Part shown: positions 7,466 to 20,212 of the stretch, piece by piece | Layout: each line of letters opens with the position of its first letter | Position numbering within the stretch: the stretch's first letter is position 1 | From: a virus | Virus record (IMG/VR): IMGVR_UViG_3300005613_000054 | Coordinates: 1 to 64,000 of that record | Length of the DNA stretch: 64,000 nt | Strand: one strand, 5' to 3' | Notes under the pieces: generated by a model | The model's input: the letters and a program-made list of their open reading frames with translations, nothing else | The model's database searches: none | Told to the model about the DNA's origin: nothing | Made by a program: the position numbers and the translations under genes

Positions 7466-7487
7466 AATGACGTATCTTATGTATGAT
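7459..7487 (+). promoter_or_regulatory. Near-consensus sigma-70 promoter TTGACA-N17-TATGAT
   Basis: TTGACA at 7459-7464 and TATGAT at 7482-7487 with a 17 bp spacer, overlapping the 5' end of the divergent SDR gene. It places transcription start near 7494, which decides the start of the next small gene in favour of ATG 7515. Unlike the neighbouring promoter family it has a full -35 and no upstream dyad. Confidence 0.7.
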
Positions 7488-7514
7488 AACTCTGTCAGCG
7501 TTCAAGGGAACACT

Positions 7515-7688
7515 ATGCCGGTTAACTTAAAGGACACAGTAACATATAAAGGTGTTACAGGAGTTGTAGATTTCATTGATAAAGATTACTTTACAATTAC
7601 TGTAAACTACGCTGATCATAGGTCATTCAATACAAGGATGCTAGTCTACTGGGACACTAATTATACTGTCCACCAAACCACCCACTGA
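7515..7688 (+). CDS. Small SH3/KOW-like hypothetical protein
   Basis: 57 residues from the ATG at 7515, chosen because AAGGGA lies just upstream and because a near-consensus promoter would start transcription downstream of the alternative ATG at 7467. The sequence (DTVTYKGVTGVVDFIDKDYFTITV) has the alternating strand pattern of a small KOW/SH3-like barrel. It lies between the sugar cassette and the CobT-like gene, whose promoter dyad falls inside its 3' end. Function unknown. Confidence 0.65.
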   Translation: MPVNLKDTVTYKGVTGVVDFIDKDYFTITVNYADHRSFNTRMLVYWDTNYTVHQTTH

Positions 7689-7707
7689 CCTAGATATGAT
7701 GTATATT
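7653..7707 (+). promoter_or_regulatory. Dyad-type promoter, copy 1 (CobT-like gene)
   Basis: Dyad GACACT-aattat-ACTGTC at 7653-7670, then 31 bp to a -10 TATATT at 7702-7707. The CAC and CCACTG tract between them matches the other copies. Inverted CCTA/TAGG flank the -10. The CobT-like gene starts 21 bp downstream of the -10. The dyad lies inside the 3' end of the preceding ORF, so coding sequence also carries the element. Confidence 0.65.
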
Positions 7708-7728
7708 AGGCACATCTGAGACGAATTG

Positions 7729-9876
7729 ATGCCTGTAAACATCGAAATCAAGGGCAATCTTGCCCGTCTGCTTGCTACTGAGAACCTTATTGTAGAGCAC
7801 AAGCAGGTTGAGACTGCTATGTTCGATGTTGATCGTCGTGTGCTTACTTTGCCTATGTGGAAGAAGGCAAGTAACACTGTCTACGATATGCTCGTAGCAC
7901 ATGAAGTTGGTCACGCATTGTTTACACCTTTCCGTGAGTGGAATCTTGAGGATGAGTATCGCAACATTCCTCCTGATTTTGTAAATGTTGTTGAGGATGC
8001 TCGTATTGAGCGTCTGATGAAGAAAAAGTTTGCTGGTTTATCCCGCGACTTCTATTCTGCTTACAGCGAACTCAATCAGGATGATTTCTTTTGTGTTGCT
8101 GATGAAGATCTCAACAACTTGAAACTCATCGACAAGATCAATCTTTACTTTAAGATTGGTGCTTTCCTGTGCATTGATTTTAATGATGAGGAACAACAAT
8201 TTGTTACTGCTATCAGCAAGGCAGAAACATTTGAAGAGGTGCTTAACATCAGTCGGGATATTGTAGATTATTGTAAGGCAAAACAACAGGATCTAAAAGA
8301 CAATCAGCAGCAGCAACAATCACCTAATTCAACTGGTGGTTCCGCAGGTAACAAATCACCTGACGGTAAAGAAGAGATTGAGGATGATGATTCTAATGGT
8401 GATCACGAGGAAGATGCTGAGACTCGGCAACAACAACCCGATCAACCAAAAGTTGATCAAGATGCTCCTCAAGATGAGTTCACCAGTGATACTCAGCGGT
8501 CATTCAATAACAATCAGGGTGACCTGATTGATCGTAGTTTATCTAGCACCAACTATGTAACTTTGCCTGAGATTGATACTGATCTTGCTATTGTTGACTT
8601 CAATACTATCAGCAAGTATCTGTCTGAATGGTATGCTGAAGAGAAAGAACGTGGGACCAGTCGTGCTAATGCTATCGAACATTTTGCTGCAGAGTATCGT
8701 AAGTTCAAGAAAGATTCAAACAAGGAAGTCAACTACCTTGTGAAAGAGTTTGAGATGAAGAAGTCTGCCGATGCTTATGCTCGTGCAACAACTTCACGCA
8801 CTGGTGTACTCAACACCAGCAAACTTCACACCTACAAGTACAACGAAGATCTGTTCAAGAAGGTAACTAACATCCCTGACGGTAAGAATCACGGTCTCAC
8901 ATTCTATCTGGATTGGAGTGGATCTATGCAGCATGTTCTGCTAGATACTATGAAGCAACTGTTCCAACTGGTTTGGTTCTGCAAGAAGGTCAACATCCCC
9001 TTTGAGGTGTATGCTTTTACTAGCGATAGTTGGTCACTCAATCAACCAGTAGAACCTGGTGCATCTCATTACACTGTGGTCGATCGTCATCAACTACACA
9101 AGAATTGGAAGGCATGTGAGTTGCATGTGGAAGGTAGTTTCCGCATGGTTGAGATACTCAACGGCACATGTAATGGTAAAGATCTTGATCAACAAATGTT
9201 GAACTTGTATCTCACTGCAGTTGCATTTACCAAGAATTACTATCGCTATCCTGGTCAATTTGGTCTGTCTGGGACACCACTGAACGAGGCAATCATTCTG
9301 TCTAAGACTATCATGGAGAAGTTTATTCGTAAGCACAAGTTGCAGAAATGTCACGCTATTGTGCTCACTGATGGTGAAGGTTATCCTCCTTCACACAATG
9401 TCGAGTGCAAGGAATCTTACTACAATAATGATAAAGGAACCAGCAGAGTTCGCCCTGGTTCTTATATCCGTCACAACGGCAGAACTTATCACATTGCTGA
9501 TGACTTTTCTGGTTTCACACAGACACTAATTCGTTGCGTCAAGGATAGTCTTCCTGGTGTATCTTTCATCGGTTTCCGTGTGCTTGAGAAAGGTGGAGTT
9601 CGTTCCTTCTGGCATCAGTATGGTGGTGATTCTAAGCAGTTCGCTAACATCGACGAGGTGAAGACTGTGCTCCAAAAGGAGAGATCAATCTGCCTCAAGT
9701 CTCCTGCCTTTGATCTATTCTTTGGTCTAGCACAGTCAGGTTTATCCGTGTCCACTGAATTGGATGTTGACGAAGGATCTAGCAAGCGGGAGGTTAGTGC
9801 ATCTTTCCGCAAAATGTTCAAGGGCAAAAAGTCTAATAAATTTGTATTGAGTACCTTTATTGAGAAAATTTCATGA
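7729..9876 (+). CDS. CobT-like metallopeptidase with C-terminal VWA domain
   Basis: 715 residues from ATG 7729 (a TTG just before is less likely). An N-terminal zincin motif HEVGH (residues 58-62) with downstream acidic residues, a Gln/Asp/Glu-rich disordered linker around 190-265, and a C-terminal von Willebrand A domain with MIDAS motif DWSGSM (395-400). The VWA plus MoxR-type ATPase pairing is a known chaperone/metal-insertase arrangement (CobT with CobS, MoxR with its VWA partners); the AAA+ partner lies at 10994. In cyanophages such genes are annotated as CobT-like or peptidase, but cobalt insertion is unproven. Confidence 0.8.
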   Translation: MPVNIEIKGNLARLLATENLIVEHKQVETAMFDVDRRVLTLPMWKKASNTVYDMLVAHEVGHALFTPFREWNLEDEYRNIPPDFVNVVEDARIERLMKKKFAGLSRDFYSAYSELNQDDFFCVADEDLNNLKLIDKINLYFKIGAFLCIDFNDEEQQFVTAISKAETFEEVLNISRDIVDYCKAKQQDLKDNQQQQQSPNSTGGSAGNKSPDGKEEIEDDDSNGDHEEDAETRQQQPDQPKVDQDAPQDEFTSDTQRSFNNNQGDLIDRSLSSTNYVTLPEIDTDLAIVDFNTISKYLSEWYAEEKERGTSRANAIEHFAAEYRKFKKDSNKEVNYLVKEFEMKKSADAYARATTSRTGVLNTSKLHTYKYNEDLFKKVTNIPDGKNHGLTFYLDWSGSMQHVLLDTMKQLFQLVWFCKKVNIPFEVYAFTSDSWSLNQPVEPGASHYTVVDRHQLHKNWKACELHVEGSFRMVEILNGTCNGKDLDQQMLNLYLTAVAFTKNYYRYPGQFGLSGTPLNEAIILSKTIMEKFIRKHKLQKCHAIVLTDGEGYPPSHNVECKESYYNNDKGTSRVRPGSYIRHNGRTYHIADDFSGFTQTLIRCVKDSLPGVSFIGFRVLEKGGVRSFWHQYGGDSKQFANIDEVKTVLQKERSICLKSPAFDLFFGLAQSGLSVSTELDVDEGSSKREVSASFRKMFKGKKSNKFVLSTFIEKIS

Positions 9877-10910
9877 AAACATATGACCTTCGATTGGAAA
9901 TAGGCAATCATTGCAATTTGCGGTGTCCTTTATGCTTGAGACAATCACCGCTTATTGATAAAAATGTACTGAATAGAGTTCATTCATCATTGAACGACGT
10001 TAAGAAATTTTTGCCTAGATTCTTTTTAACCAATCAAATTAAATCTGTACTTATAAGTGGTTCATCTTCAGAACCCACAATGAACTCAAATTTAATCAAC
10101 ATTGTAAACTATTTGATTAAGTATAATAGTAATATAATTGTTGATAGTAATGGATCAACTCGCAATATAGATTGGTGGGCAGAACTTGGTGCAACTGGTG
10201 TGCAGTGCGACTTTGCACCAGATAGTATTAAACCTAACAATAATAAGTATCGCATCAACTCAAATACTGATAAGGTTATTGAGAACATGCAAGCATTTAT
10301 TTCTGCTGGTGGTACTGCTAGATGGAAGTTTATTCCATATGCTCATAATCAAGACGAATTAGAAGAACAGCGTACTATTTCAAAAAGCATTGGTGCTACA
10401 TTTTTCGTAGCACAACCATTTACTGTTAGAAATAGAACGGAAAAAGTTGAAGACTCTGACTTATTTCCTAAAGATCATAAACTTGTAAGATATACCGAAA
10501 ATAGCACACCACATCATTATTGTAAAATACTTGGAGAAATTCAAAATTTACTTGAAATATCTGCCGAAGGTATTGTATATCCTTGTACTTTCTCTAGTAG
10601 AGAACTTTATTATGTGTATGGAGATTATTTTGTATCGGGAAATACTACCCCAAAAGTTAATTTTGAATATGTAAAAGGATGGACTGAAAAATTAGATAGT
10701 TTTATTGAAAGTTTTGTCCCACTAATTGAGGACCAAGGTGGAATCGAGACACTATCATTACACCATTATTCAATTACTGAAATTTTGAACTCCCCATTTT
10801 ATAAAAATACATTAAAACAATCATGGAGCAATAAAGAACATTTTTGTAACAAACACTGCAATCACGTCAAATATAGTGATCATTTAGAGTATGTTTTGAA
10901 TAAAAACTAG
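9873..10910 (+). CDS. Radical SAM protein, SPASM-like
   Basis: 345 residues; ATG overlaps the stop of the preceding gene (ATGA), so it is translationally coupled to it. The [4Fe-4S] motif CNLRCPLC places Cys14, Cys18 and Cys21 at the very N-terminus. Further cysteines near the C-terminus (SAEGIVYPC, HFCNKHCNH) resemble a SPASM/twitch auxiliary-cluster domain, common in enzymes that modify peptides or proteins. Base composition is clearly more AT-rich than both neighbours, and it separates two genes that normally act together, so it looks like an insertion. Substrate unknown. Confidence 0.8.
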   Translation: MKTYDLRLEIGNHCNLRCPLCLRQSPLIDKNVLNRVHSSLNDVKKFLPRFFLTNQIKSVLISGSSSEPTMNSNLINIVNYLIKYNSNIIVDSNGSTRNIDWWAELGATGVQCDFAPDSIKPNNNKYRINSNTDKVIENMQAFISAGGTARWKFIPYAHNQDELEEQRTISKSIGATFFVAQPFTVRNRTEKVEDSDLFPKDHKLVRYTENSTPHHYCKILGEIQNLLEISAEGIVYPCTFSSRELYYVYGDYFVSGNTTPKVNFEYVKGWTEKLDSFIESFVPLIEDQGGIETLSLHHYSITEILNSPFYKNTLKQSWSNKEHFCNKHCNHVKYSDHLEYVLNKN

Positions 10911-10916
10911 CAGTAG

Positions 10917-10972
10917 GACGGTCTGCGAACTGTCCACTGATCCACCACAGCAGAGTCAACCGCTGCTATATT
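10917..10972 (+). promoter_or_regulatory. Dyad-type promoter, copy 2 (CobS-like gene)
   Basis: Dyad GACGGT-ctgcga-ACTGTC at 10917-10934, 32 bp, then -10 TATATT at 10967-10972. Inner inverted repeat AGCAG (10949-10953) with CTGCT (10963-10967) abuts the -10. No -35 hexamer at the usual distance. The CobS-like gene starts 21 bp downstream, giving a leader of about 15 nt. Confidence 0.7.
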
Positions 10973-10993
10973 AACCACAGTTAAATCAATCAC

Positions 10994-12118
10994 ATGCCTC
11001 GCACGATTAACTTTCAACATCACTTCGACAGTCTTATTGATAACTTCGGCACGACGATTGATACACCTCAACTGCAAGCATATTGCAGTCATCACGGTGT
11101 AGGTTATCAGACCATTACTAAGTATCTCCAACAGTACAAAGTTGGACGTGGTAAGTGGAACCTTACTGTTGAGGAAGCAAAGCAACAACTAGAGCGTAGT
11201 GTAGATAACACTGCTGCGCTGTCTAAAACTGTTACAGTAGCACAAAACCTAGTCCCATCAAAAGATGATACCTTCGTCAGCTTTGGTAACTTTAGCAGTC
11301 TTAAAAAGGTTATCCAATCGCGCCAATTCTATCCGGTCTTCATTACTGGATTGTCCGGTAATGGTAAGACTTTCGCAGTGGAGCAAGCGTGTGCTCAACT
11401 CAATCGCGAATTGATCCGTGTGAATATCACTATTGAGACGGATGAAGATGATCTTATTGGTGGTTTTCGTCTAGTTAATGGTGAAACAGTTTGGCACAAT
11501 GGTCCTGTGATTGAAGCACTGGAGCGTGGTGCAGTTCTGCTTCTCGATGAGATTGATCTTGCGTCTAATAAGGTACTCTGTTTGCAGTCTATCTTGGAGG
11601 GCAAAGGTATCTTCTTGAAGAAGATCGGTGAGTATATCAAACCCACTGCAGGTTTCACCGTGATTGCTACTGCTAACACCAAAGGTAAGGGTAGTGATGA
11701 TGGTCGATTCATCGGCACCAATGTACTCAACGAGGCATTTCTTGAGCGCTTCCCCATCACCTTTGAGCAACAGTATCCTACTGTTTCTGTTGAGAACCGT
11801 ATCCTTGAACGTGCATGTGAAGAACTGAATGTTCCCCTGGTTGGTGAGCACAAAGACTTTATTGTTCATCTCTGCAACTGGGCAGATATTGTCCGCAAAA
11901 CATTCAACGATGGCGGCATTGATGAAGTTATCTCCACCCGCCGTTTGGTTCACATCATCCGAGCATATTCTATCTTTGGTGATAAGATGAAGGCAGTGGA
12001 GTTGTGCCTTAATCGTTTCGACGATGAGACTAAACAATCGTTCTTGGAATTGTATAGCAAACTCGATGAAACTGTTAATCTAAATGAAGGACAGTCAGAG
12101 GATGCTAACGTGCAATAA
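10994..12118 (+). CDS. cobS: MoxR/CobS-type AAA+ ATPase
   Basis: 374 residues. Walker A GLSGNGKT (119-126), Walker B VLLLDEID (181-188), sensor-type Asn in IATANT, and an arginine-finger-like FLERFP segment. About 85 N-terminal residues form a separate, helix-rich domain. This architecture matches cyanophage CobS and the MoxR ATPases that act with VWA proteins; the likely partner is the CobT-like protein at 7729. It has its own dyad-type promoter. The cobalt-chelatase name is historical; a role in protein remodelling is equally possible. Confidence 0.85.
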   Translation: MPRTINFQHHFDSLIDNFGTTIDTPQLQAYCSHHGVGYQTITKYLQQYKVGRGKWNLTVEEAKQQLERSVDNTAALSKTVTVAQNLVPSKDDTFVSFGNFSSLKKVIQSRQFYPVFITGLSGNGKTFAVEQACAQLNRELIRVNITIETDEDDLIGGFRLVNGETVWHNGPVIEALERGAVLLLDEIDLASNKVLCLQSILEGKGIFLKKIGEYIKPTAGFTVIATANTKGKGSDDGRFIGTNVLNEAFLERFPITFEQQYPTVSVENRILERACEELNVPLVGEHKDFIVHLCNWADIVRKTFNDGGIDEVISTRRLVHIIRAYSIFGDKMKAVELCLNRFDDETKQSFLELYSKLDETVNLNEGQSEDANVQ

Positions 12119-12168
12119 TCTCCTTTCTAAAACATTCATCTAAATAAATTCACATCTAATCACTTTCC

Positions 12169-12309
12169 ATGTTTCTAGAATCAACTGATCATTGTCTTGT
12201 GGATGATGTAGAACTCTTCGACAAATCATTCAATGTTGAAGAGTTTGAAGAGGATGAAGATCGTCGTTCTGATGCTTATCAGGATCTAGCAAATCGTCAT
12301 TACGCTTGA
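12169..12309 (+). CDS. Small acidic hypothetical protein
   Basis: 46 residues, strongly acidic (VEEFEEDEDRRSD), 50 bp downstream of the CobS-like gene and ending on the -35 of the next promoter. No recognisable motif. Support comes from a clean ATG-to-stop frame, tight packing and the similarity in style to the other tiny acidic genes of this block. Confidence 0.5.
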   Translation: MFLESTDHCLVDDVELFDKSFNVEEFEEDEDRRSDAYQDLANRHYA

Positions 12310-12334
12310 CGAATTACCCTAGGTAGGGTACAAT
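12306..12334 (+). promoter_or_regulatory. Sigma-70 promoter with operator-like palindrome in spacer
   Basis: TTGACG (12306-12311), 17 bp spacer, TACAAT (12329-12334). The spacer holds a perfect inverted repeat ACCCTA-gg-TAGGGT (12316-12329) that abuts the -10, as the inner repeats of the dyad-type promoters do. No upstream GAC dyad is visible here. Confidence 0.6.
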
Positions 12335-12357
12335 GTTGTTCCACTGAGTTGCCTGCC

Positions 12358-12549
12358 ATGCTTACTGAAAGAGACCTCATTTCACATGATGATTATGAGA
12401 ACTTCGCCAAGTATCTTGGCGTTGATTATGATGATTTCTGTGAACTATTTGTTCCAGAAAGTGATGTCGATGATAGCGATCTTGTCGGCATTAGTAATCA
12501 CCATGGTGGACAGTTCGACAAACTGGCACACACCCCCTTGCGAACCTGA
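12358..12549 (+). CDS. Small acidic hypothetical protein
   Basis: 63 residues from ATG 12358 (an upstream in-frame TTG is unlikely). Rich in Asp (DYDDF, SDVDDSD); no known motif, signal peptide or membrane span. It sits behind its own sigma-70-type promoter, and its 3' end carries the dyad of the next promoter copy. Function unknown. Confidence 0.6.
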   Translation: MLTERDLISHDDYENFAKYLGVDYDDFCELFVPESDVDDSDLVGISNHHGGQFDKLAHTPLRT

Positions 12550-12566
12550 CCCAAATCGGTTATATT
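12509..12566 (+). promoter_or_regulatory. Dyad-type promoter, copy 3 (upstream of two in tandem)
   Basis: Dyad GACAGT-tcgacaa-ACTGGC at 12509-12527, 33 bp, then -10 TATATT at 12561-12566. A recognisable -35 TTGCGA is also present (12538-12543, 17 bp spacer). Inner repeat AACC/GGTT spans 12543-12561. No ORF begins before the next promoter copy, so both copies probably serve the gene at 12725. Confidence 0.6.
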
Positions 12567-12608
12567 AGGTTCATCGGTGGAGGGAACACCACTCACCACC
12601 ACGGTCAA

Positions 12609-12669
12609 GACGGTTCACAAACCGTTACACCAAACTTGACCAAAGCACCAGTTCATGCTATACTGAACT
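12609..12669 (+). promoter_or_regulatory. Dyad-type promoter, copy 4, with operator over the -10
   Basis: Dyad GACGGT-tcacaa-ACCGTT at 12609-12626, 32 bp, then -10 TATACT at 12659-12664. It also has a -35 TTGACC (12636-12641, 17 bp spacer). A 6 bp inverted repeat AGTTCA/TGAACT (12650-12655 and 12664-12669) encloses the -10. Drives the gene at 12725 with a leader of about 55 nt. Confidence 0.65.
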
Positions 12670-12724
12670 CGTCCTGAATACGACGCTAAACTGTTCATTG
12701 ATCAAACTAACACTTTTTATTATC

Positions 12725-12949
12725 ATGACTGCACTCAACATCGCTGGTTCTTCCGCTATCCAATCCGTGTCCTTCGGTGATAACAACGCTGTCGGCGTTA
12801 AGTTCACTTCTAACGACACTGAGTATGGTTTCGTGGCTCAGGATCAAACCCTTGTTCGTAGTGGTCTGGAGTCTGCAATCGCTGCCGGTCGTAGTGTCGG
12901 CAAACTGATTGCTCAGTATCGCGCTGAGGGTCAACTCACCGCCGTCTGA
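12725..12949 (+). CDS. Small hypothetical protein, KTSC-like pattern
   Basis: 74 residues from ATG 12725 (the longer in-frame TTG start lacks support). The layout, beta strands followed by a helix (SVSFGDNNAVGVKF, then GRSVGKLIAQYRAEGQL), loosely resembles the small KTSC domain, but the defining residues are not all present. Two tandem dyad-type promoters precede it and a terminator-like hairpin follows, so it is a monocistronic unit and perhaps strongly expressed. Confidence 0.65.
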   Translation: MTALNIAGSSAIQSVSFGDNNAVGVKFTSNDTEYGFVAQDQTLVRSGLESAIAAGRSVGKLIAQYRAEGQLTAV

Positions 12950-12996
12950 TAGACAACTACAACTGAATAGATTGATCATTCGCTGAATATCGCAAG

Positions 12997-13036
12997 CAAT
13001 CCCGTTCTAGTTAATCTGGGGCGGGATTGTTAGTTT
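12997..13036 (+). terminator. Probable terminator after the gene at 12725
   Basis: Stem CAATCCCG (12997-13004) pairs with CGGGATTG (13022-13029) around a 17 nt loop and is followed by TTAGTTT. The U-tract is imperfect. Confidence 0.5.
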
Positions 13037-13038
13037 AA

Positions 13039-13098
13039 GTGGACAGTTGAGTAAAGTGTCCACTATTCTCCCCACAGCAGGGCAAAATGCTGTATTAT
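13039..13098 (+). promoter_or_regulatory. Dyad-type promoter, copy 5 (nuclease-like gene)
   Basis: Extended dyad GTGGACA/TGTCCAC at 13039-13063, then -10 TATTAT at 13093-13098, 32 bp after the GTC half-site. Inner repeat CAGCA (13075-13079) with TGCTG (13088-13092) abuts the -10. No -35 hexamer. Because the -10 lies downstream of an ATG at 13087, that ATG cannot be used from this promoter. Confidence 0.7.
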
Positions 13099-13115
13099 TA
13101 CAAAGTAATCAATCA

Positions 13116-13132
13116 GGGGTGTCGATCACCCC
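13116..13132 (+). promoter_or_regulatory. Leader hairpin over the ribosome-binding region
   Basis: GGGGTG-tcgat-CACCCC, a perfect 6 bp GC-rich stem in the mRNA leader, ending 8 nt before ATG 13141 and containing the only purine-rich SD-like stretch. It could lower translation of the nuclease-like gene. Confidence 0.5.
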
Positions 13133-13140
13133 ATCAAATT

Positions 13141-13881
13141 ATGTTCAAAACAGACGGTTCAGTTCATCACGGCGGCATCCAAAACGAGTTGGATACTATC
13201 GACTTTCTTAATAGCATCAAACGCTATCAACAACTCGTTGAACATCGTGGTGGAACTGGTCAAAAAGCAGATGCAGTCTGCGAGAAATACCTTAGCATCA
13301 AGCGTAAGAAAGGCATCAAGAATGGATCTTTCGACTGGTGCAACACTTCAATTTACAACGATACTTTTGGTGATCACTTCACCGAGTTTCTGGAAGATGT
13401 GAAGCAGCATCGTCAACTTCCCGTAGAACTTCGGGAGGTTGCTGTTACTTTCCTTCGTAACGATCTTAACAACTTGTGCGAGACTGCACTAGAATCGTTG
13501 TCTGCTGATCGCCTGATTGCACTGCTGAAGGATATTTTCAGCAAGCAAGAAGGATACGACATTGTTATCAACGACACTGAATCGAAGGAAGTTTTCATCT
13601 TTGCTGCTGAGCAACATCCTGTGCTCGCTGCTATCGAGCAGGGTTACATTCCTGAGTTGGTGTCTACCCGTGGTGCTAAGTCTTCCCGTAAGATTGTATT
13701 CCGCAAGGGCAACGAGACTATCAACACCGGTCTGCGTCTTCGCGTGACCAGTAACAACGGAATCAATGCTTTTCTGGGTCTGAGTGAAGCAAACAAAAAC
13801 AGTCAGATTGTTATCAAACTACAGCAAGATGCTGTCGGTCAATTAGTGATTGATACTAAGGCAGACCGATACGCTTACTGA
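13141..13881 (+). CDS. Putative restriction-endonuclease-like protein (PD-(D/E)xK-type pattern)
   Basis: 246 residues from ATG 13141; the longer frame from 13087 begins upstream of the promoter -10. Near the N-terminus HHGGIQNELD (Glu16) is followed by HRGGTGQKADAV (Asp44) and YLSIKRKKG (Lys54), which fits the acidic-x(n)-(D/E/S)xK active-site spacing of type II restriction enzymes, many of which carry a G-G-T-x-K-x-D stretch. A DNA methyltransferase gene lies next, after a terminator and with its own promoter. Nuclease function is inference from motif and neighbour; the protein could instead be an inactive relative. Confidence 0.55.
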   Translation: MFKTDGSVHHGGIQNELDTIDFLNSIKRYQQLVEHRGGTGQKADAVCEKYLSIKRKKGIKNGSFDWCNTSIYNDTFGDHFTEFLEDVKQHRQLPVELREVAVTFLRNDLNNLCETALESLSADRLIALLKDIFSKQEGYDIVINDTESKEVFIFAAEQHPVLAAIEQGYIPELVSTRGAKSSRKIVFRKGNETINTGLRLRVTSNNGINAFLGLSEANKNSQIVIKLQQDAVGQLVIDTKADRYAY

Positions 13882-13897
13882 TACATTTGAACTACTC

Positions 13898-13929
13898 AAG
13901 AACCCTGTCCACGACAGGGTTCTTTTGTT
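13898..13929 (+). terminator. Strong intrinsic terminator
   Basis: Perfect 12 bp stem AAGAACCCTGTC (13898-13909) with GACAGGGTTCTT (13913-13924), triloop cac, then TTGTT. It separates the nuclease-like gene from the methyltransferase promoter. Confidence 0.85.
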
Positions 13930-13958
13930 ATCAACAATCGATTTTTTGGTGTTTTCGC

Positions 13959-13987
13959 TGGACAGGATCCATAGGGTGTGGTAAACT
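13959..13987 (+). promoter_or_regulatory. Sigma-70-like promoter for the methyltransferase
   Basis: TGGACA (13959-13964), 17 bp spacer, TAAACT (13982-13987). No upstream dyad. Transcription would start near 13994, ahead of a GAGGA ribosome-binding site. Confidence 0.5.
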
Positions 13988-14011
13988 GTAAAAACGAGGA
14001 AAAAAACCAAA

Positions 14012-14950
14012 TTGATCACAATTCTCCAACAATCTGCTGAGCAGATGCACACCATCAGTCAGGATTTTGACCTGATTTATATGGATCCCCCCTTTGGATT
14101 GCAGCGTGATTTTAACATGCTGGAGCAGGATGGTGAGCAAAAAGGTTTCAGTGACTGGTGGGAATCGTTCGATGATTATATTCAGTGGTATGCACAGATT
14201 ATCAATGCTGGATATAAGAAACTGAAGAAGGATGGGTGGTTATATTTGCACAACAATTTCATCGGCAACGCATTAGTCTTGTCGCATGTTGATGATAACA
14301 TTAGAAACGACTTCTATACTAACATCAGTTGGAAAAGATCAGGTCCAAAGAATAACATTAAGAACGGTTGGGGTAACATTGTAGATTCTATCCTGGTTAT
14401 CAAGAAAGGCAACCCATTCTTTCAGGTTGAGTATACTGACCTTGATCCCAAATATGAGAAGAACTCCTTTAAGAATAAGGACGTAAAGGGTTACTATGCA
14501 CTAGCAAAAACCACAGGTGAGAAGTCACGACCATGCCGAAGATTTGACTTCAAAGGATATAATCCTGAGTATGGTTGGCGGATCAGTGAGGATCTATTGC
14601 ATGAACTTGCTGATGCTAATATGTTACATTACGGCAAGAATACGATCTACAAGAAGATTTACCTTGAGGACAATAAAGGTGTGCCTGTCCAGAACTTGTG
14701 GGATGACGTATACTTTATTAGCAGAAGTGAGAGCAACAAAAGAAAGTATCCCACACAAAAACCACTGAAATTGTTGGAAAGAATTATCAAGTCATCTTGC
14801 CCTCCTGGTGGTTATGTTTTTGACCCATTCTGTGGATCGGGAACAACAGCAATCGCGGCACAAGTGTTGGGTAGAAATTGTTACACAAGTGACGTTAATC
14901 CTACCGCGATTGAGTTAGTAAAAGATGCCTGTGGTGTGACTCTGTTCTAA
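14012..14950 (+). CDS. DNA methyltransferase, DPPF-type, beta-class motif order
   Basis: 312 residues if the TTG at 14012 is the start. TTG is favoured over ATG 14045 because residues 1-11 (MITILQQSAEQ) match the usual start of this family and GAGGA lies at a usable distance. The catalytic DPPF motif (DLIYMDPPFG) comes near the N-terminus and the SAM-binding motif FDPFCGSGTT near the C-terminus, the beta-class order of amino-methyltransferases (N6-adenine or N4-cytosine). Likely modifies phage DNA to block host restriction, or partners the nuclease-like protein upstream. Target site unknown. Confidence 0.85.
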   Translation: MITILQQSAEQMHTISQDFDLIYMDPPFGLQRDFNMLEQDGEQKGFSDWWESFDDYIQWYAQIINAGYKKLKKDGWLYLHNNFIGNALVLSHVDDNIRNDFYTNISWKRSGPKNNIKNGWGNIVDSILVIKKGNPFFQVEYTDLDPKYEKNSFKNKDVKGYYALAKTTGEKSRPCRRFDFKGYNPEYGWRISEDLLHELADANMLHYGKNTIYKKIYLEDNKGVPVQNLWDDVYFISRSESNKRKYPTQKPLKLLERIIKSSCPPGGYVFDPFCGSGTTAIAAQVLGRNCYTSDVNPTAIELVKDACGVTLF

Positions 14951-14992
14951 GTGTCTACTGATACCCCACAGGGCACTGAAATGCCCTATACT
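14938..14992 (+). promoter_or_regulatory. Dyad-type promoter, copy 6
   Basis: Weak dyad GACtct...aaGTGTC at 14938-14955, overlapping the methyltransferase stop, 31 bp, then -10 TATACT at 14987-14992. Inner repeat GGGCA (14971-14975) with TGCCC (14982-14986) abuts the -10, preceded by CCCCACA. Drives the gene at 15017. Confidence 0.65.
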
Positions 14993-15016
14993 AAGTTCAT
15001 CAAAGGGATTCAAACC

Positions 15017-15262
15017 ATGCCCCACATCGATCGCAACTCAGTCCGAATCATCAACGGCACTGCACTCAAAGTAATCACCGCTGATGGTATGGATCGCACT
15101 CAAATTAACACCCATTTGCACTATCTCAACGTAGAGATGGATAAACTTCGGGCAAAACAAGCGGTTTTGATTGCTCGTCGTGATGCCATAGATCATGAGT
15201 GTGAAATGCTAGAACGTGCAGACGCTGCTGAAGATCTTTTCGCTGAAATGTTCGGAGGTTGA
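15017..15262 (+). CDS. Small coiled-coil hypothetical protein
   Basis: 81 residues from ATG 15017, which follows an AAAGGGAT ribosome-binding site and lies just downstream of the promoter -10; the longer frame starts upstream of it. Residues 35-75 form a charged helix (VEMDKLRAKQAVLIARRDA) likely to be coiled coil. It heads a two-gene unit with the gene at 15266. Function not recognised. Confidence 0.65.
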   Translation: MPHIDRNSVRIINGTALKVITADGMDRTQINTHLHYLNVEMDKLRAKQAVLIARRDAIDHECEMLERADAAEDLFAEMFGG

Positions 15263-15265
15263 GTA

Positions 15266-15454
15266 ATGTCTTTAATTAAAAAAGTTTATCTCGAACAATT
15301 GACTGCCCGTGAACAACTTATGGAAGACATTGATGCAATCATTGATGGATTCTTTAATGATACTTACGAGGCACAATATCCTGAGGAACGTGATGATCTG
15401 ATTCGCATCTTATGTGATGCTGTTTGTAAGAATTGGACAATTAAGACAGTTTAA
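15266..15454 (+). CDS. Small hypothetical protein, paralogue of the one at 19081
   Basis: 62 residues; GGAGG lies 8 bp before the ATG, and the start is 3 bp after the previous stop. The segment REQLMEDIDAIIDGF followed by DDLIRILCDAVCKNW is nearly repeated in the 50-residue protein at 19081, so the two are paralogues or tandem relics. All-helical and acidic with two conserved cysteines. The stop codon lies inside the dyad of the next promoter. Confidence 0.65.
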   Translation: MSLIKKVYLEQLTAREQLMEDIDAIIDGFFNDTYEAQYPEERDDLIRILCDAVCKNWTIKTV

Positions 15455-15500
15455 GAACTGTCCACAAAACCCCCCACAGCAGGGCAAAATGCTGTATATT
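15445..15500 (+). promoter_or_regulatory. Dyad-type promoter, copy 7
   Basis: Perfect dyad GACAGT-ttaaga-ACTGTC at 15445-15462 spanning the stop of the preceding gene, 32 bp, then -10 TATATT at 15495-15500. Inner repeat CAGCA (15477-15481) with TGCTG (15490-15494) abuts the -10. Drives the gene at 15524. Confidence 0.7.
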
Positions 15501-15523
15501 GTAAAGGTGATCAACGGAGCACA

Positions 15524-15664
15524 ATGATTTCAGTCGAAACCGAGTTTCACATTGTTAGCGTTGAAAAGCGCGAATGGAAAGAAATTCAAAAGTTTTGTGA
15601 TGCTGAAGGTATCACTCCAGACTACTACTTCTGGGAGTTTGCAATGCTTGAAGATGAAGAGTAA
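15524..15664 (+). CDS. Small acidic hypothetical protein
   Basis: 46 residues, beginning MISVETEFHIVSVEKREW and ending FAMLEDEE. ACGGAG precedes the ATG. It lies 23 bp downstream of a dyad-type promoter -10. No motif recognised; the short strand-helix layout suggests a compact single domain. Confidence 0.6.
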   Translation: MISVETEFHIVSVEKREWKEIQKFCDAEGITPDYYFWEFAMLEDEE

Positions 15665-15700
15665 CTAACACTTTTACTGCACACCTTTCTTTTCACTAAC

Positions 15701-15847
15701 ATGACTACTCACATTATTGAAGTTCATCCCCAAACTGGTTATGTTTTCCGTGAGGAAATTCAACATGAAAATGTATATGTAGCGTTGCAGATTGCAAAGC
15801 AGCGTTATCCTAACGCCAAATATATTTCAAGGGTTGGGACAAAATAG
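15701..15847 (+). CDS. Small hypothetical protein
   Basis: 48 residues, basic at the C-terminus (AKQRYPNAKYISRVGTK), following the acidic gene at 15524 by 36 bp. The pattern (EVHPQTGYVFREE, then VALQIAKQRYPNA) is like the small ssDNA- or host-protein-binding peptides of phages, but no family is recognised. Its stop overlaps the next promoter dyad. Confidence 0.55.
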   Translation: MTTHIIEVHPQTGYVFREEIQHENVYVALQIAKQRYPNAKYISRVGTK

Positions 15848-15901
15848 ACAGTCCGCTAGGTGTCCACTAAATCACCACAGGGCACTCCGGTGCCCTATAA
15901 T
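15847..15901 (+). promoter_or_regulatory. Dyad-type promoter, copy 8
   Basis: Dyad GACAGT-N8-TGTC at 15847-15864, 31 bp, then -10 TATAAT at 15896-15901. Inner repeat GGGCAC (15880-15885) with GTGCCC (15890-15895) abuts the -10. Drives the gene at 15926. Confidence 0.7.
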
Positions 15902-15925
15902 TAGATCAACAAAGCAACGGAGACC

Positions 15926-16276
15926 ATGACTACAGCAATCGAGACAAACTATTCTCAGATGTGCTACGATCTTGCCGATGATCTCAACAATCGTTGGAAA
16001 GTTGATGCAATCGAAAGCAGCAACCATTTCTATCACAAACTAGAGGTCGAAGTTGCTAAGAAATATGTAAAGATTTGGGTCTCACATGTGCCCTTCAAAG
16101 GTGATAGCAAACTCCCTAGTCGTTCGATCTGGATGTTTGTAGACAAGACCAACGGTTTCTGTTACAAACCTGCTAGCACCAAAGCACCTGCTAAGGGTGT
16201 CCGATTTGGTCTCTATCAGTTGCTCGCTTATCCCGAGACTTGTGATAAGTTTGGTTCCTTTCTTTACCGTCGCTGA
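15926..16276 (+). CDS. Hypothetical protein
   Basis: 116 residues; ACGGAGACC precedes the ATG. Mixed alpha/beta with many aromatic residues (KYVKIWVSHVPF, RSIWMFVDKTNGFCYKP), no signal peptide. First gene of a two-gene unit with the exported peptidase-like gene, whose start is 6 bp after its stop. Function not recognised. Confidence 0.65.
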   Translation: MTTAIETNYSQMCYDLADDLNNRWKVDAIESSNHFYHKLEVEVAKKYVKIWVSHVPFKGDSKLPSRSIWMFVDKTNGFCYKPASTKAPAKGVRFGLYQLLAYPETCDKFGSFLYRR

Positions 16277-16282
16277 TTGATC

Positions 16283-16840
16283 ATGAACTTCAAGAAATTC
16301 TTTGCTACTGTTGTTGCTTCCGCTGCAGTATTTGCCCCAGTTGGTGTACTCGCACAAGATGCAAAAGAGCGTGCTCATCAACAACTTTGGGAGGCAGTCC
16401 AGCGGGTTGGTGTTCATGCCGTCACCAATTCTCCCAACTTTTGTGATGGTAAGCACCATGGATTTTATGCTCCTGCAGAACGTCTGATGGTCATTTGTCA
16501 AGATAATGCTAACGCTTACGACGGCAGAATGGTGCCTTGGAGTGATAATGATTTCGACACATTGCGCCACGAAGCGCATCACATTGTCCAAGATTGTTCG
16601 TTGGGTGGATTAGGCGATCAGCGAGAAACTGCCTTTATTGGTAAAGACAAAGAACTGCTGCAGTTTATTCAACATAGTGGACTCACAAAAGATCAACTTA
16701 ACTGGATCGTGGATAGTTACAAGAAACGCGGTGCAAATGATCATGTGATTAAACTTGAGTTGGAAGCATTTGCAGTTGCAGCATCAGTCAAAGCGGACAC
16801 AATTGCTGAGGCTCTGATTGCTACTTGTGGGGTCCGATAA
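16283..16840 (+). CDS. Exported zinc-metallopeptidase-like protein
   Basis: 185 residues from ATG 16283. A clear signal peptide (KKFFATVVASAAVFAPVG, probable cleavage after VLA near residue 24) precedes a mature domain with HEAHH (96-100), a match to the HExxH zinc-binding motif, and a downstream ELEAFA (159-163) that could give the third ligand as in gluzincins. Four cysteines in the mature part could form disulfides. An exported peptidase made by a phage during infection would act in the host periplasm or envelope. Activity is inferred from the motif alone. Confidence 0.7.
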   Translation: MNFKKFFATVVASAAVFAPVGVLAQDAKERAHQQLWEAVQRVGVHAVTNSPNFCDGKHHGFYAPAERLMVICQDNANAYDGRMVPWSDNDFDTLRHEAHHIVQDCSLGGLGDQRETAFIGKDKELLQFIQHSGLTKDQLNWIVDSYKKRGANDHVIKLELEAFAVAASVKADTIAEALIATCGVR

Positions 16841-16868
16841 TACCTTACAACAGACAGTAAGGTACAAT
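16841..16868 (+). promoter_or_regulatory. Perfect 8 bp inverted repeat overlapping a TACAAT
   Basis: TACCTTAC (16841-16848), 8 bp, GTAAGGTA (16857-16864), with a -10-like TACAAT at 16863-16868. No -35. Could be an operator/promoter or a hairpin at the end of the peptidase mRNA. Confidence 0.4.
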
Positions 16869-16876
16869 CTACCTGT

Positions 16877-16931
16877 GACGGTCCCCAAACCGTCCTCAAA
16901 GGGCACACAGGCACCGCAGGGGTGCTATACT
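16877..16931 (+). promoter_or_regulatory. Dyad-type promoter, copy 9
   Basis: Perfect dyad GACGGT-ccccaa-ACCGTC at 16877-16894, 31 bp, then -10 TATACT at 16926-16931. Inner repeat GCACC (16911-16915) with GGTGC (16921-16925) abuts the -10. Drives the gene at 16959. Confidence 0.7.
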
Positions 16932-16958
16932 AAGTTCATCAAACAAAGGGAGAACCCC

Positions 16959-17210
16959 ATGCAACTGACCAGCAAAGACGGTAACATGGTTGTTGATTTC
17001 TATCCCGTCAAATTTGCAACGGGTGAAGTTCACAATCGTCTGGTTCTGAAAGTTGTTACTTTCTCCAACGATGTTCAGTCTCAGCGTTACATCAACAAAA
17101 AAGATGTGCAAGGTGAGGTTGATTCCCGTGTTGCCGGTTATGGTTACAAGATCACCCGAGTTGAGTCTCCTGCCCAACTGTTAAACACTGCTCTGGGATG
17201 TGCCTGCTGA
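16959..17210 (+). CDS. Small hypothetical protein
   Basis: 83 residues from ATG 16959, which follows AAAGGGAGAA; the longer frame starts upstream of the promoter. Beta-rich (NMVVDFYPVKF, NRLVLKVVTFSND) with a short C-terminal helix and two terminal cysteines. Head of a four-gene run whose downstream starts overlap stops. No family recognised. Confidence 0.65.
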   Translation: MQLTSKDGNMVVDFYPVKFATGEVHNRLVLKVVTFSNDVQSQRYINKKDVQGEVDSRVAGYGYKITRVESPAQLLNTALGCAC

Positions 17211-17249
17211 GGCAACAGTTAGTAACACTTTCACCCCACAATTCTCATC

Positions 17250-17399
17250 ATGACTGTTATGCTCACTAAAGAAGATCATGATTTTGTTGACTTTTTGTTC
17301 GGCAAACTCATCAAACATGTTGATACTGAAATGATAGATTTGCAGGATGATGATACCTGCTGTGACCACATTCAATTCACTCAACTGGAGATTTTCTGA
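17250..17399 (+). CDS. Small acidic hypothetical protein
   Basis: 49 residues, with an acidic segment (MIDLQDDDTCCDH). Its stop TGA overlaps the ATG of the next gene by one base, so the two are translationally coupled. No motif recognised. Confidence 0.55.
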   Translation: MTVMLTKEDHDFVDFLFGKLIKHVDTEMIDLQDDDTCCDHIQFTQLEIF

Positions 17400-17587
17400 T
17401 GCAATTCCTAGTCGATCACATTGAATTTGATTTTGATGAAGAACTCACCCGCGATGAAAAGATTGATGTTCTAGATGATAACATTGGTCTGTGGGACGCT
17501 GATGATGAAGACGATCTAATTGAGGAAATTACAACATCATCCGGTTGGTGTATTAAATCTATCAACTATCGCCATTTGCTCAAATGA
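17399..17587 (+). CDS. Small very acidic hypothetical protein
   Basis: 62 residues, about a third Asp/Glu (LWDADDEDDLIEEI). Coupled upstream (TGATG) and downstream (ATGA) to its neighbours. Strongly acidic small phage proteins are often DNA mimics or host-protein binders; nothing here proves that role. Confidence 0.6.
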   Translation: MQFLVDHIEFDFDEELTRDEKIDVLDDNIGLWDADDEDDLIEEITTSSGWCIKSINYRHLLK

Positions 17588-17853
17588 CTAACAACATCAC
17601 ACAGGCAGAAAGAGAACAGTTCTGGGAGGATCCCGACATCACAAACCAACCAAACCAAAGCATCATGGACCTGGACGGATTGCGAGACAATTATGCTCAT
17701 TACATTGTTGACGGTTTGGATCTGGATTCGGTTGTAGAACTTGCTTTTGAGTATATCCGTGGGAATTTGCAAGAGTATACTGAGAAGGAGTTAATTGCCG
17801 AGATTGTAGACAATTATGATCAGGAAACGCTGGAAGGACTGACGGAACACTAA
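17584..17853 (+). CDS. Acidic helical hypothetical protein
   Basis: 89 residues, start ATGA-coupled to the previous gene. Helical and acidic (VVELAFEYIRGNLQEYTEKE). The 3' end carries the next promoter dyad. Function not recognised. Confidence 0.6.
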   Translation: MTNNITQAEREQFWEDPDITNQPNQSIMDLDGLRDNYAHYIVDGLDLDSVVELAFEYIRGNLQEYTEKELIAEIVDNYDQETLEGLTEH

Positions 17854-17895
17854 CTGGCACACAAAACAGGCACAGTGCCCCAGATGCCCTACAAT
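17841..17895 (+). promoter_or_regulatory. Dyad-type promoter, copy 10 (degenerate dyad)
   Basis: Degenerate dyad GACGGA-acacta-ACTGGC at 17841-17858, 31 bp, then -10 TACAAT at 17890-17895. Inner repeat GGCA (17869-17872) with TGCC (17885-17888). Spacing is identical to the better copies, which supports assignment to the same class. Drives the gene at 17922. Confidence 0.55.
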
Positions 17896-17921
17896 AGGAT
17901 CAACAAAGCAAAGGGAACCAA

Positions 17922-18122
17922 ATGACCACCATCATCAACAATCCTGATTTTATCAGTGCAATCGAAGGACTGCAATCCTTTATTTTTGATAGTGGTGCCG
18001 ATTGTGATATGGCGTACGATTGGGTCTGCGATCAGGCAGAATGTTCCTCTTTTGTTGAAGACAAAGCGGCATGGGATATGTTCTATGATGTTTATGATTC
18101 CACTCAAGATCTGGACGCTTGA
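17922..18122 (+). CDS. Small acidic hypothetical protein
   Basis: 66 residues, acidic, with three cysteines (GADCDMAYDWVCDQAEC) and a helical C-terminus. AAAGGGAACC precedes the ATG. It is followed closely by two more tiny genes (18150, 18334), probably in one transcript from the dyad-type promoter. No family recognised. Confidence 0.6.
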   Translation: MTTIINNPDFISAIEGLQSFIFDSGADCDMAYDWVCDQAECSSFVEDKAAWDMFYDVYDSTQDLDA

Positions 18123-18149
18123 TAACACTAACCCACACACAAAACCATC

Positions 18150-18314
18150 ATGACCAAACGCGAAGCACTGAGGATTTTTAAGAACGATCTCATGGGAGTT
18201 GTGCCTGGAGATGACATCTACACCCGCGAGAATTGGAACAATTACACCGATTTCTTGTGCAAGAAAGGTGACATCACCATGAGGCAATACGAGACTTGGG
18301 ATAACCCTTTCTGA
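18150..18314 (+). CDS. Small hypothetical protein
   Basis: 54 residues, beginning MTKREALRIFKNDL and ending YETWDNPF. The pattern of an initial helix, a TREN/W segment and RQYETW resembles small cyanophage proteins of unknown role. ATG is in the common 'acacaaaaccatcATG' style of this block. Confidence 0.55.
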   Translation: MTKREALRIFKNDLMGVVPGDDIYTRENWNNYTDFLCKKGDITMRQYETWDNPF

Positions 18315-18333
18315 TCACACACTCACTAACATC

Positions 18334-18480
18334 ATGAACCGCGAAGATTTCAATTTCCAGTTACAAGAACTCCGCACACAGTTGAAAGACAAAAGGAATG
18401 AAATCAATGCGATCAGTGATAAGATTGAAAGACTAAAGGCAGAATGGAGAATTTCAAGGATAATGCAACCAGTTCGCTAA
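18334..18480 (+). CDS. Small coiled-coil hypothetical protein
   Basis: 48 residues, almost entirely a charged amphipathic helix (RTQLKDKRNEINAISDK) with heptad-like spacing. It follows the gene at 18150 by 19 bp. Function unknown. Confidence 0.55.
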   Translation: MNREDFNFQLQELRTQLKDKRNEINAISDKIERLKAEWRISRIMQPVR

Positions 18481-18526
18481 CTGTCCATTACATAACCGCC
18501 ACTTAACCTTGATCTGCAATTATAAG
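18468..18526 (+). promoter_or_regulatory. Possible divergent copy of the dyad-type promoter
   Basis: CCAGT-tcgcta-ACTGTC (half-site sequence ends at 18485), followed by CCAT and CCGCCAC as in the family, and TATAAG at 18521-18526. The gap is 35 bp rather than 31-33, and one dyad half is altered, so this is only a candidate. It would serve the 35-residue gene at 18530. Confidence 0.35.
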
Positions 18527-18529
18527 AGC

Positions 18530-18637
18530 ATGAACCACTACCTCGCCGCTGCCCTTCTGATGGTCGTTGCTATCGGGTTCCCCATGCTGTGTGCTGCCCT
18601 AGGAATGAAAGTTGACCCTCGCCGCCCTTGGTGGTGA
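18530..18637 (+). CDS. 35-residue single-span membrane peptide
   Basis: A short ORF encoding a hydrophobic segment (YLAAALLMVVAIGFPMLCAA) followed by a basic tail MKVDPRRPWW. This is a convincing single transmembrane helix with positive residues after it. The size recalls small thylakoid or photosystem subunits, but no family is recognised. It is tightly placed between the gene at 18334 and a perfect promoter dyad that overlaps its stop. Confidence 0.5.
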   Translation: MNHYLAAALLMVVAIGFPMLCAALGMKVDPRRPWW

Positions 18638-18690
18638 CGGTCACCGAACCGTCTACTTTTCCCCCCATTGCCCCCCAAACATCCTATACT
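18636..18690 (+). promoter_or_regulatory. Dyad-type promoter, copy 11
   Basis: Perfect dyad GACGGT-caccga-ACCGTC at 18636-18653, 31 bp, then -10 TATACT at 18685-18690. The intervening DNA is very C-rich; unlike other copies no inner inverted repeat is seen. Drives the gene at 18718. Confidence 0.65.
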
Positions 18691-18717
18691 AAGATCAACA
18701 AACAAACGGAGACCACC

Positions 18718-19059
18718 ATGCGTAAGATCGAACTTCAGATGAACAAAGCAATCGAAGACAAAAAAGATTGGAGCAAGGATAACACTTCGGTGTCCTATAA
18801 TGAAGAACTCGATTGCAGCATTGTTCGTTTGTATGGTAACAAGATTGCAGAGATCTACGAGGGTAAAATTGTACTCTTCGACGGTGGGTTTCAATCAGTA
18901 ACCACCAAAAGTCGCCTGAACGCGATTATTGATGGAAACGGTGGATTTGGGTCGGAAGGTGTATTTCAAAAGGACTGGGATTGGTTTGTTCGTATCTACG
19001 ATTATGCGACCAAAACTTTCAACGTGGTAGACTTCCAAAATGGTTTAGTTCTTGCCTGA
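18718..19059 (+). CDS. Hypothetical protein
   Basis: 113 residues from ATG 18718, following ACGGAGACCACC; the longer frame begins upstream of the promoter. Mixed alpha/beta, starting with a charged helix and then strands (SIVRLYGNKIAEIYEGKIVLF). No signal peptide or catalytic motif recognised. Likely co-transcribed with 19081, 19250 and 19393. Confidence 0.65.
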   Translation: MRKIELQMNKAIEDKKDWSKDNTSVSYNEELDCSIVRLYGNKIAEIYEGKIVLFDGGFQSVTTKSRLNAIIDGNGGFGSEGVFQKDWDWFVRIYDYATKTFNVVDFQNGLVLA

Positions 19060-19080
19060 TTCATCCCCTACATTATCACT

Positions 19081-19233
19081 ATGGACCGACTTGAAATGTT
19101 ATCTCAACGTGAACAACTAATGGAGGACATTGATGCGATTGTTGAGGATTTTTGTCCGTTTGGAACGGAAGGAAATGATGAATTAGTTCGCGTCCTGTGT
19201 GATGCAGTCTGCCGTAATTTTCCCACTAACTAA
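19081..19233 (+). CDS. Small hypothetical protein, paralogue of the one at 15266
   Basis: 50 residues. REQLMEDIDAIVEDF and DELVRVLCDAVCRNF align almost residue for residue with the protein at 15266, with a few residues deleted between the two blocks. The similarity extends to the DNA. A duplicated gene in a compact phage genome suggests a useful function, which is unknown. Confidence 0.6.
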   Translation: MDRLEMLSQREQLMEDIDAIVEDFCPFGTEGNDELVRVLCDAVCRNFPTN

Positions 19234-19249
19234 CAACAACACCAACACA

Positions 19250-19393
19250 ATGAACGACAACGAACTTGACTATTCACAGGATTTCGATTACAATGGAGAC
19301 TGGACAGATCCAGATGATATTGTAACAATCCTAGACGGCAATATCCAAGAAAACTTCGACAACGAAACCAACCAACTTTTGGAGCAATTCTGA
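19250..19393 (+). CDS. Small very acidic hypothetical protein
   Basis: 47 residues from ATG 19250 with net charge strongly negative (YSQDFDYNGDWTDPDD). Its TGA overlaps the ATG of the following gene by one base. No motif recognised. Confidence 0.55.
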   Translation: MNDNELDYSQDFDYNGDWTDPDDIVTILDGNIQENFDNETNQLLEQF

Positions 19394-19692: not shown

Positions 19693-20056
19693 TTTACCAC
19701 TCTAAATAACAGGTTGATTGGGTACGCGCAAATAATTATAATTATTAAAATAAATGTTAATTAGTATTGTAATTGACTGTTAATCTTATTCCGTAATCTG
19801 ATGAATCGTTGATCCGAATTCGTATCAGAGTAAGCAACATTTAAGTCGTTCTAAATGCCCGCAGTCGTTGTTACCTTAGCGAGCGACCTATCATAACACA
19901 ATTCACCCCAAAAGTCAAGTCCTCCGAGACACTTTACAAACCGGCAAATTCGTGTTATAATGGGTGCAGTCTTCGGGTATAATTAGGGCAACTTCGGGAA
20001 TGACTTTGCCCGACCAAAAGACAGTCGATCTCACACACACTTTGAACCCACACATT
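19693..20056 (+). other. Non-coding, partly AT-rich intergenic region with tandem -10 sequences
   Basis: No ORF, tRNA or CRISPR is visible. The first 100 bp are very AT-rich (runs of att/aat around 19733-19790), a possible easily melted segment. The right half holds two promoters for the gene at 20057. The left half could be part of a replication origin together with the DnaA-box cluster 600 bp further on. Confidence 0.45.
19933..19961 (+). promoter_or_regulatory. Sigma-70 promoter TTTACA-N17-TATAAT
   Basis: TTTACA (19933-19938), 17 bp, TATAAT (19956-19961). A second TATAAT at 19978-19983 follows without a clear -35. CTTCGGG flanks the second box on both sides as a direct repeat. Upstream of the gene at 20057. 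Confidence 0.6.
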
Positions 20057-20212
20057 ATGAACTCTGAACTTCTCATTGGTGCTCTGCGTAAGGGACAGTC
20101 AGGCAGTGAAATCCTCAGCATTCTTGATGCTTTGGTGGGAACAGTTTCTGATGATCAGTCTCGTCCTCAGAGTAATGCTAACTGGTCGTTGGATGATGTA
20201 AGCGACTTCTGA
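20057..20212 (+). CDS. Small hypothetical protein
   Basis: 51 residues from ATG 20057. A helical N-terminus (SELLIGALRKGQSGSEILSILDAL) is followed by a Ser/Asp-rich tail. The first half resembles a short protein-protein interaction helix pair. Monocistronic, with its own promoter(s) and a terminator-like hairpin after it. No family recognised. Confidence 0.55.
   Translation: MNSELLIGALRKGQSGSEILSILDALVGTVSDDQSRPQSNANWSLDDVSDF

Follow-up and report, generated by a model that had tools for sequence, protein, structure and literature searches.

A palindrome at a fixed distance from the -10 box marks a putative promoter class of T4-like cyanophages and S-TIM5

How T4-like cyanophages take over transcription without MotA and AsiA is an open question, which the promoter class described here addresses. 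Cyanomyoviruses have no alt, modA, modB, motA or asi, and their early and middle transcription is unclear (review, PMC2984593); the promoter searches of Sullivan et al. concerned sigma-70, T4 late, Pho and NtcA only (PMC3037559). The DNA considered here is positions 1 to 64,000 of IMG/VR virus record IMGVR_UViG_3300005613_000054, a viral contig of 67,891 bases, and this whole stretch of 64,000 nucleotides is called the window below. Judged by its gene content (gp6-, neck- and gp15-like structural genes, a CobS-like ATPase, a CobT-like peptidase and a Kyano_Gp96 protein), the record belongs among the T4-like cyanophages. An initial annotation of the window, made from the letters alone, had proposed a family of at least eleven promoters in which a dyad precedes the -10 box at a fixed distance. 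We propose, with a probability of about 70%, that these are members of a sigma-70-type promoter class of T4-like cyanophages and of phage S-TIM5, serving CobT/CobS and small non-structural genes, in which a dimeric activator bound to the dyad replaces the -35 box.

To count the sites in the window, we required dyad arms matching in at least 10 of 12 positions, a fair -10 box and a gap of 31-33 bp on the + strand, and used 60 dinucleotide shuffles as the control. Eleven dyads with a -10 box at this gap were found, whereas the shuffles averaged 0.32 and never exceeded 2, and in the real sequence the other gap windows of the same 3-bp width held only 0-3 dyad/-10 pairs each, so that the spacing is more constant than chance would make it. 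All eleven dyads of the initial annotation were recovered at their coordinates, each 31-33 bp before a TAtAnT hexamer, and its "at least eleven" rises to 13 when two more are counted, a dyad at 19928-19945 with TATAAT and a weak dyad at 18468-18485 with AATTAT, both at gap 32. Of the dyads given there, the one at 14938 is poor (9/12 arm positions), and those at 12509 and 13042 need the 19-bp form. The sites are as follows, E values and matches being those of a sequence-only covariance model.

7653..7670, + strand: site 1 dyad, gap 31, before the CobT-like peptidase gene (7729-9876)
7702..7707, + strand: site 1 -10 box TATATT, predicted +1 at 7714
10917..10934, + strand: site 2 dyad, before cobS (10994-12118), E=2.7e-7
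10967..10972, + strand: site 2 -10 box TATATT, predicted +1 at 10979
12509..12527, + strand: site 3 dyad in the 19-bp form, gap 33, in tandem with site 4
12561..12566, + strand: site 3 -10 box TATATT, predicted +1 at 12573
12609..12626, + strand: site 4 dyad, before a gene at 12725-12949, TTGACC in the spacer, model match
12659..12664, + strand: site 4 -10 box TATACT, predicted +1 at 12671
13042..13060, + strand: site 5 dyad in the 19-bp form, E=2.2e-6
13093..13098, + strand: site 5 -10 box TATTAT, predicted +1 at 13105
14938..14955, + strand: site 6 dyad with weak arms, the stop codon of the methyltransferase gene inside it
14987..14992, + strand: site 6 -10 box TATACT, predicted +1 at 14999
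15445..15462, + strand: site 7 dyad with perfect 7-bp arms, upstream stop codon inside it, E=3.1e-9
15495..15500, + strand: site 7 -10 box TATATT, predicted +1 at 15507
15847..15864, + strand: site 8 dyad, before a gene at 15926-16276, model match
15896..15901, + strand: site 8 -10 box TATAAT, predicted +1 at 15908
16877..16894, + strand: site 9 dyad, before a gene at 16959-17210, model match
16926..16931, + strand: site 9 -10 box TATACT, predicted +1 at 16938
17841..17858, + strand: site 10 dyad, before a gene at 17922-18122, upstream stop codon inside it
17890..17895, + strand: site 10 -10 box TACAAT, predicted +1 at 17902
18468..18485, + strand: site 11 dyad, weak, absent from the initial annotation, E=0.0024
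18518..18523, + strand: site 11 -10 box AATTAT, weak, predicted +1 at 18530
18636..18653, + strand: site 12 dyad, before a gene at 18718-19059 (Pfam Kyano_Gp96), model match
18685..18690, + strand: site 12 -10 box TATACT, predicted +1 at 18697
19928..19945, + strand: site 13 dyad, absent from the initial annotation, E=7.1e-7 (+) and 1.9e-4 (-)
19978..19983, + strand: site 13 -10 box TATAAT at 32 bp, predicted +1 at 19990

The dyad first described proved to be the core of a longer palindrome with the consensus TGTG(A/C)CA(G/C)TT-N4-AA(C/G)TG(T/G)CACA, the palindromic element measuring some 18-24 bases. The promoter layout consists of the inner 18-bp dyad, 31-33 bp (mode 32), TATAAT, 6 bp and a purine start. 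All 13 window sites have a purine as the 7th base after the hexamer, as do 315 of 349 sites in related phages, where the preceding base is a pyrimidine in 229. Neither base was used in selecting these 349 sites, and such a pattern is the signature expected for a start site. Counted from the predicted +1, the dyad spans about -62 to -45 with its centre at about -53.5, close to the -52 estimated earlier. Most sites have no -35 box, as had been noted, but site 4 (12609) has TTGACC. Leaders in the window are mostly 14-21 nt long, and in 6 of the 13 sites the stop codon of the upstream gene lies inside the dyad or at its edge.

Concerning relatives, in 80 contigs fetched by CobS similarity a gap of exactly 32 bp accounted for 73 sites, and the other gaps mostly for 0-10 each. 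A position-weight matrix trained on these CobS-locus contigs was then run on 98 other contigs, and the expectation that such a matrix would find the element in related cyanophages was borne out: the held-out contigs have 75, 201 and 72 sites at gaps 31, 32 and 33, against 0-25 at other gaps, with the peak on the gene strand only. The same gap preference is found in complete genomes. Of the single regulon proposed initially for the genes of CobT-like and CobS proteins and the block of small genes, a single promoter class driving them is supported, both in the held-out relatives and in the complete genomes. A general bidirectionality of the dyad was considered and rejected, there being no peak on the - strand in relatives. 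For the window dyad at 19928 (interval 19887-19990), we record that the model matches the - strand too, with a TATGAT visible by eye at 32 bp on that side; this dyad lies in a gap without clear genes (about 19693-20080) and possibly belongs to a divergent promoter pair or to a small RNA.

With the covariance model, run on both strands so that one palindrome may count twice, matches were obtained in Syn9 (10), S-PM2 (18), P-SSM2 (21), P-SSM4 (15), the freshwater phage S-CRM01 (27), S-SKS1 (19), S-TIM5 (8) and P-TIM40 (13). The same search gave no element in T4, phiM12, Microcystis phage Ma-LMM01, Nodularia phage 2AV2, the T7-like P-SSP7 and Syn5, or the siphoviruses P-SS2 and S-CBS2/3/4. At cobS, the element is present within 250 bp upstream in 70 of 78 cyanophage loci and in none of 75 HTVC008M-related loci, a comparison in which the matrix was partly trained on the cyanophage loci and the hosts of the HTVC008M-related viruses are assigned by similarity to HTVC008M. 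By these counts, promoter sequence alone separates picocyanobacterial phages from their SAR11-infecting relatives. HTVC008M, a SAR11 phage, is itself classed in Kyanoviridae. S-SKS1, reportedly listed elsewhere as a siphovirus, has the T4 core genes here and was therefore counted with the T4-like group. S-TIM5 lacks most T4-like core proteins in a profile search, yet about ten dyad promoters follow one another in its last 10 kb, and several of them are nearly leaderless, the start codon lying about at the predicted transcription start (TATACTAGACTCATG). By these sequence matches the same promoter type is present in two lineages of picocyanobacterial viruses, the T4-like Kyanoviridae with S-SKS1 and the non-T4-like S-TIM5. 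Being predictable genome-wide, the class allows annotation in any cyanophage genome.

The initial annotation knew of no description of such promoters, which is probably wrong: Doron et al. 2016 (ISME J 10:1437) are said to have reported a novel regulatory element of early genes in Syn9 and P-TIM40. Both phages have at least 10 matches to our element, located before small genes and, in Syn9, before cobS. Because the phages of that report both carry it, we regard this kind of element as probably known already, and ours is probably the same as the early-gene element of Doron et al. 2016. The additions made here would be the palindrome with its fixed distance to the -10 box, the terminator built into the promoter, the copies in S-TIM5, the contrast with pelagiphages and the absence from hosts. 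From the kind of genes involved, and from what Doron et al. 2016 are said to have reported, the controlled genes are probably early ones.

As to how the palindrome is read, its symmetric base pairs show no significant mutual information between the arms (p>=0.06 for each pair, 173 sites). It is sequence, not pairing, that is conserved, which suggests that a dimeric protein recognises the palindrome in double-stranded DNA, and a hairpin formed by the main dyad was rejected. In the mechanism that we favour, a dimeric protein would bind the palindrome at about -62 to -45, upstream of RNA polymerase, and, the distance to the -10 box being fixed, it would sit on a fixed face of the helix. The bound dimer would contact the polymerase and make up for the weak or missing -35 box, and the polymerase would then initiate at the purine 7 bases past the -10 box. 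We infer the activating contact from the fixed spacing, the purine at +1, the mostly missing -35 box and the lack of covariation between the arms. The spacer would leave room for a stem, often the intrinsic terminator of the upstream gene, and with this room between dyad and -10 box the unit would be a cassette of 60-70 bp that closes one gene and opens the next.

Stems are indeed found in the spacer. In relatives, a perfect spacer stem of at least 6 bp is present in 88 of 344 sites, against 9 expected, and ends mostly 6-10 bases before the -10 box; a folded hairpin with a T-run occurs in about 16% of 173 sites, and some of the stems have TTGACA in or near the loop. By sequence they look like terminators of the upstream gene set inside the promoter, between the dyad and the -10 box. 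In the window, the (C)CCACAG-like tract of the initial annotation is there, though it is now seen to contain or adjoin the 5' arm of a second, local stem. In 6 of the 13 sites such a stem runs with its 3' arm directly up to the -10 box, where 500 shuffles gave 0.3 on average and never more than 4:

10949..10967, + strand: local stem of site 2, abutting the -10 box
13074..13093, + strand: local stem ACAGCA/TGCTGT of site 5, abutting the -10 box
14970..14987, + strand: local stem AGGGCA/TGCCCT of site 6, abutting the -10 box
15476..15495, + strand: local stem ACAGCA/TGCTGT of site 7, abutting the -10 box
15879..15896, + strand: local stem AGGGCAC/GTGCCCT of site 8, abutting the -10 box
16910..16926, + strand: local stem GCACC/GGTGC of site 9, abutting the -10 box

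These window stems have no T-run, and their arm sequences differ among most sites. They may be degenerate terminators or a second protein site.

Several points weigh against an activator bound to the dyad. The classic positions of CRP are -41.5 and -61.5, and the centre at -53.5 matches neither. Among relatives, TTGACA is present at 5/6 or better in 32 of 173 sites, against about 6 expected, and since a -35-like box is available there, these promoters may do without the dyad. Host chromosomes give no sign of its use: in five host genomes the dyad is rarer than a reversed control, and across 201 Cyanobiaceae genomes the full promoter model gave weak matches at E<=0.05 in 5, which is within chance, the dyad alone not exceeding its reversed-pattern control. 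Nor did a BLAST and profile comparison of 7 carriers with 5 non-carriers reveal a recognisable DNA-binding protein common to all carriers, in a search that covered S-CRM01, P-SSM4 and S-PM2 up to their last 2.5, 2.2 and 0.8 kb, respectively, and that small fast-evolving proteins could escape.

What this comparison left were glutaredoxin, tail fibre, holin-like and other small proteins, and the best of the small candidates are missing from S-CRM01. When 98 small Syn9 proteins were scanned against Pfam and NCBIfam, there was no helix-turn-helix or ribbon-helix-helix repressor or activator family among the matches listed (the best 25 of 39 Pfam families); the one sigma-70-family match is expected from gp55. 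Host genomes with multiple matches shared no common regulon on inspection, and a host transcription-factor regulon using this promoter in host chromosomes was rejected for want of enrichment in the 5 and then in the 201 genomes. As a separate observation, a palindrome close to that of the phages, GTGnCA-N10-TGnCAC, stands upstream of a two-gene operon in two Cyanobiaceae genomes, where it scores 21 and 25 (matrix background 0.023/kb), and two further loci have a weaker version in a comparable position; there is no -10 box at 32 bp. The operon encodes proteins of about 120 and 170 aa without a Pfam match, toxin-antitoxin-like by appearance.

Of the phage-specific activator proposed initially, the activator part fits, whereas the binder may be made by the phage or by the host: no binder common to all carriers was found, and the element tracks the picocyanobacterial host in two lineages. 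Its link to particular hosts speaks for a host protein that acts only at sites on phage DNA, and its absence from the hosts' own chromosomes speaks for a protein of the phage. Tentatively, and with more doubt than confidence, one may picture a single palindromic activator site in two unrelated picocyanophage lineages, absent from their SAR11-infecting cousins and from host chromosomes, built into a promoter-terminator cassette and read by a hijacked host protein or by a rapidly evolving activator that has passed from one lineage to the other and may enter the cell with the virion. The defined dyad DNA could serve as bait for the factor that binds it.

The alternative that survives best, unlikely in our estimate, is that the dyad serves as an operator at which a repressor made by the phage closes the early genes later, the -10 box and sigma-70 alone driving their early expression. 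Repressors typically bind palindromic operators, this element is restricted to phages, and early genes need switching off. However, a dyad centred at -53.5 lies clear of the core promoter, and this position makes the repressor allowed for by the initial annotation the less likely role; the exact 32-bp spacing and the frequent lack of a -35 box are hard to account for, and no candidate repressor was found.

Somewhat less probable still is that the units are mainly recombination seams, mobile cassettes of promoter and terminator with the dyad as a structural hairpin part, similar to the promoter-early stem-loops (PeSL) of T4-type phages (Arbiol 2010 and Comeau 2014, as cited in PMC4503421). The terminator stems in the spacer, the stop codon beside the dyad and the placement among variable small genes all suit it. 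PeSLs are likewise compact units of promoter and terminator between small genes of variable regions, and in relatives a stem-loop terminator is joined to the promoter here as well, many of the spacer stems having T-runs. PeSLs are far fewer in S-PM2 than in other T4-like phages (PMC4503421). Unlike PeSLs, the present units add an upstream palindrome at a fixed distance, place the terminator inside the promoter and, instead of a strong sigma-70-like promoter with a -35 box, lack that box at most sites. Moreover, the arms do not co-vary and their sequence is kept across otherwise differing sites, so that the dyad is not kept for pairing. The cassette and activator roles can coexist.

A MotA-like middle-promoter system, with a phage activator in place of the -35 box as in T4, is very improbable. 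In both cases the -10 box is retained and a protein bound upstream replaces or helps a weak -35 box, but T4 MotA boxes lie near -30 and are not palindromic, whereas here the site is a palindrome centred at -53.5 with no comparable conservation near -30. Homologues of motA and asi are also absent from cyanomyoviruses (PMC2984593). Chance likeness of AT-rich promoters, or the recent duplication of a single intergenic segment, suggested by the common flanks of some window promoters (e.g. 13042 and 15445), is refuted by the shuffles, the gap controls, the held-out prediction and the divergence of the dyad-to--10 sequences across hundreds of sites.

A parallel to the activator reading is found in class I and II promoters of the CRP-FNR type, including those of cyanobacterial NtcA, where sigma-70 promoters whose -35 box is poor are activated by a dimer bound to a palindrome. 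The consensus here contains neither GTA-N8-TAC nor TGTGA-N6-TCACA, and its position falls between the usual class I and class II positions. The T4-like late promoters (TATAAATA, gp55/gp33) belong to the same phages and differ in having another box, no dyad and other genes.

Concerning the genomic setting, CobS homologues of 60-80% identity occur in 443 phage records, the top-scoring ones all being cyanophages or unclassified marine viruses. All dyad promoters of the window lie within 7.6-20 kb, outside the structural genes; the structural-gene part has none, with TATAAATA late-type boxes at 28240 and 56648 instead. No known RNA family was found in 6000-22000. Between the CobT-like and CobS genes stands a radical SAM protein gene (9873-10910), and the small-gene block includes an N4/N6 DNA methyltransferase gene (14012-14950) whose 3' end lies inside the dyad of site 6. 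On the - strand, a reverse cluster at 4166-6549 contains carbamoyltransferase and DegT/DnrJ aminotransferase genes, probably for sugar modification.

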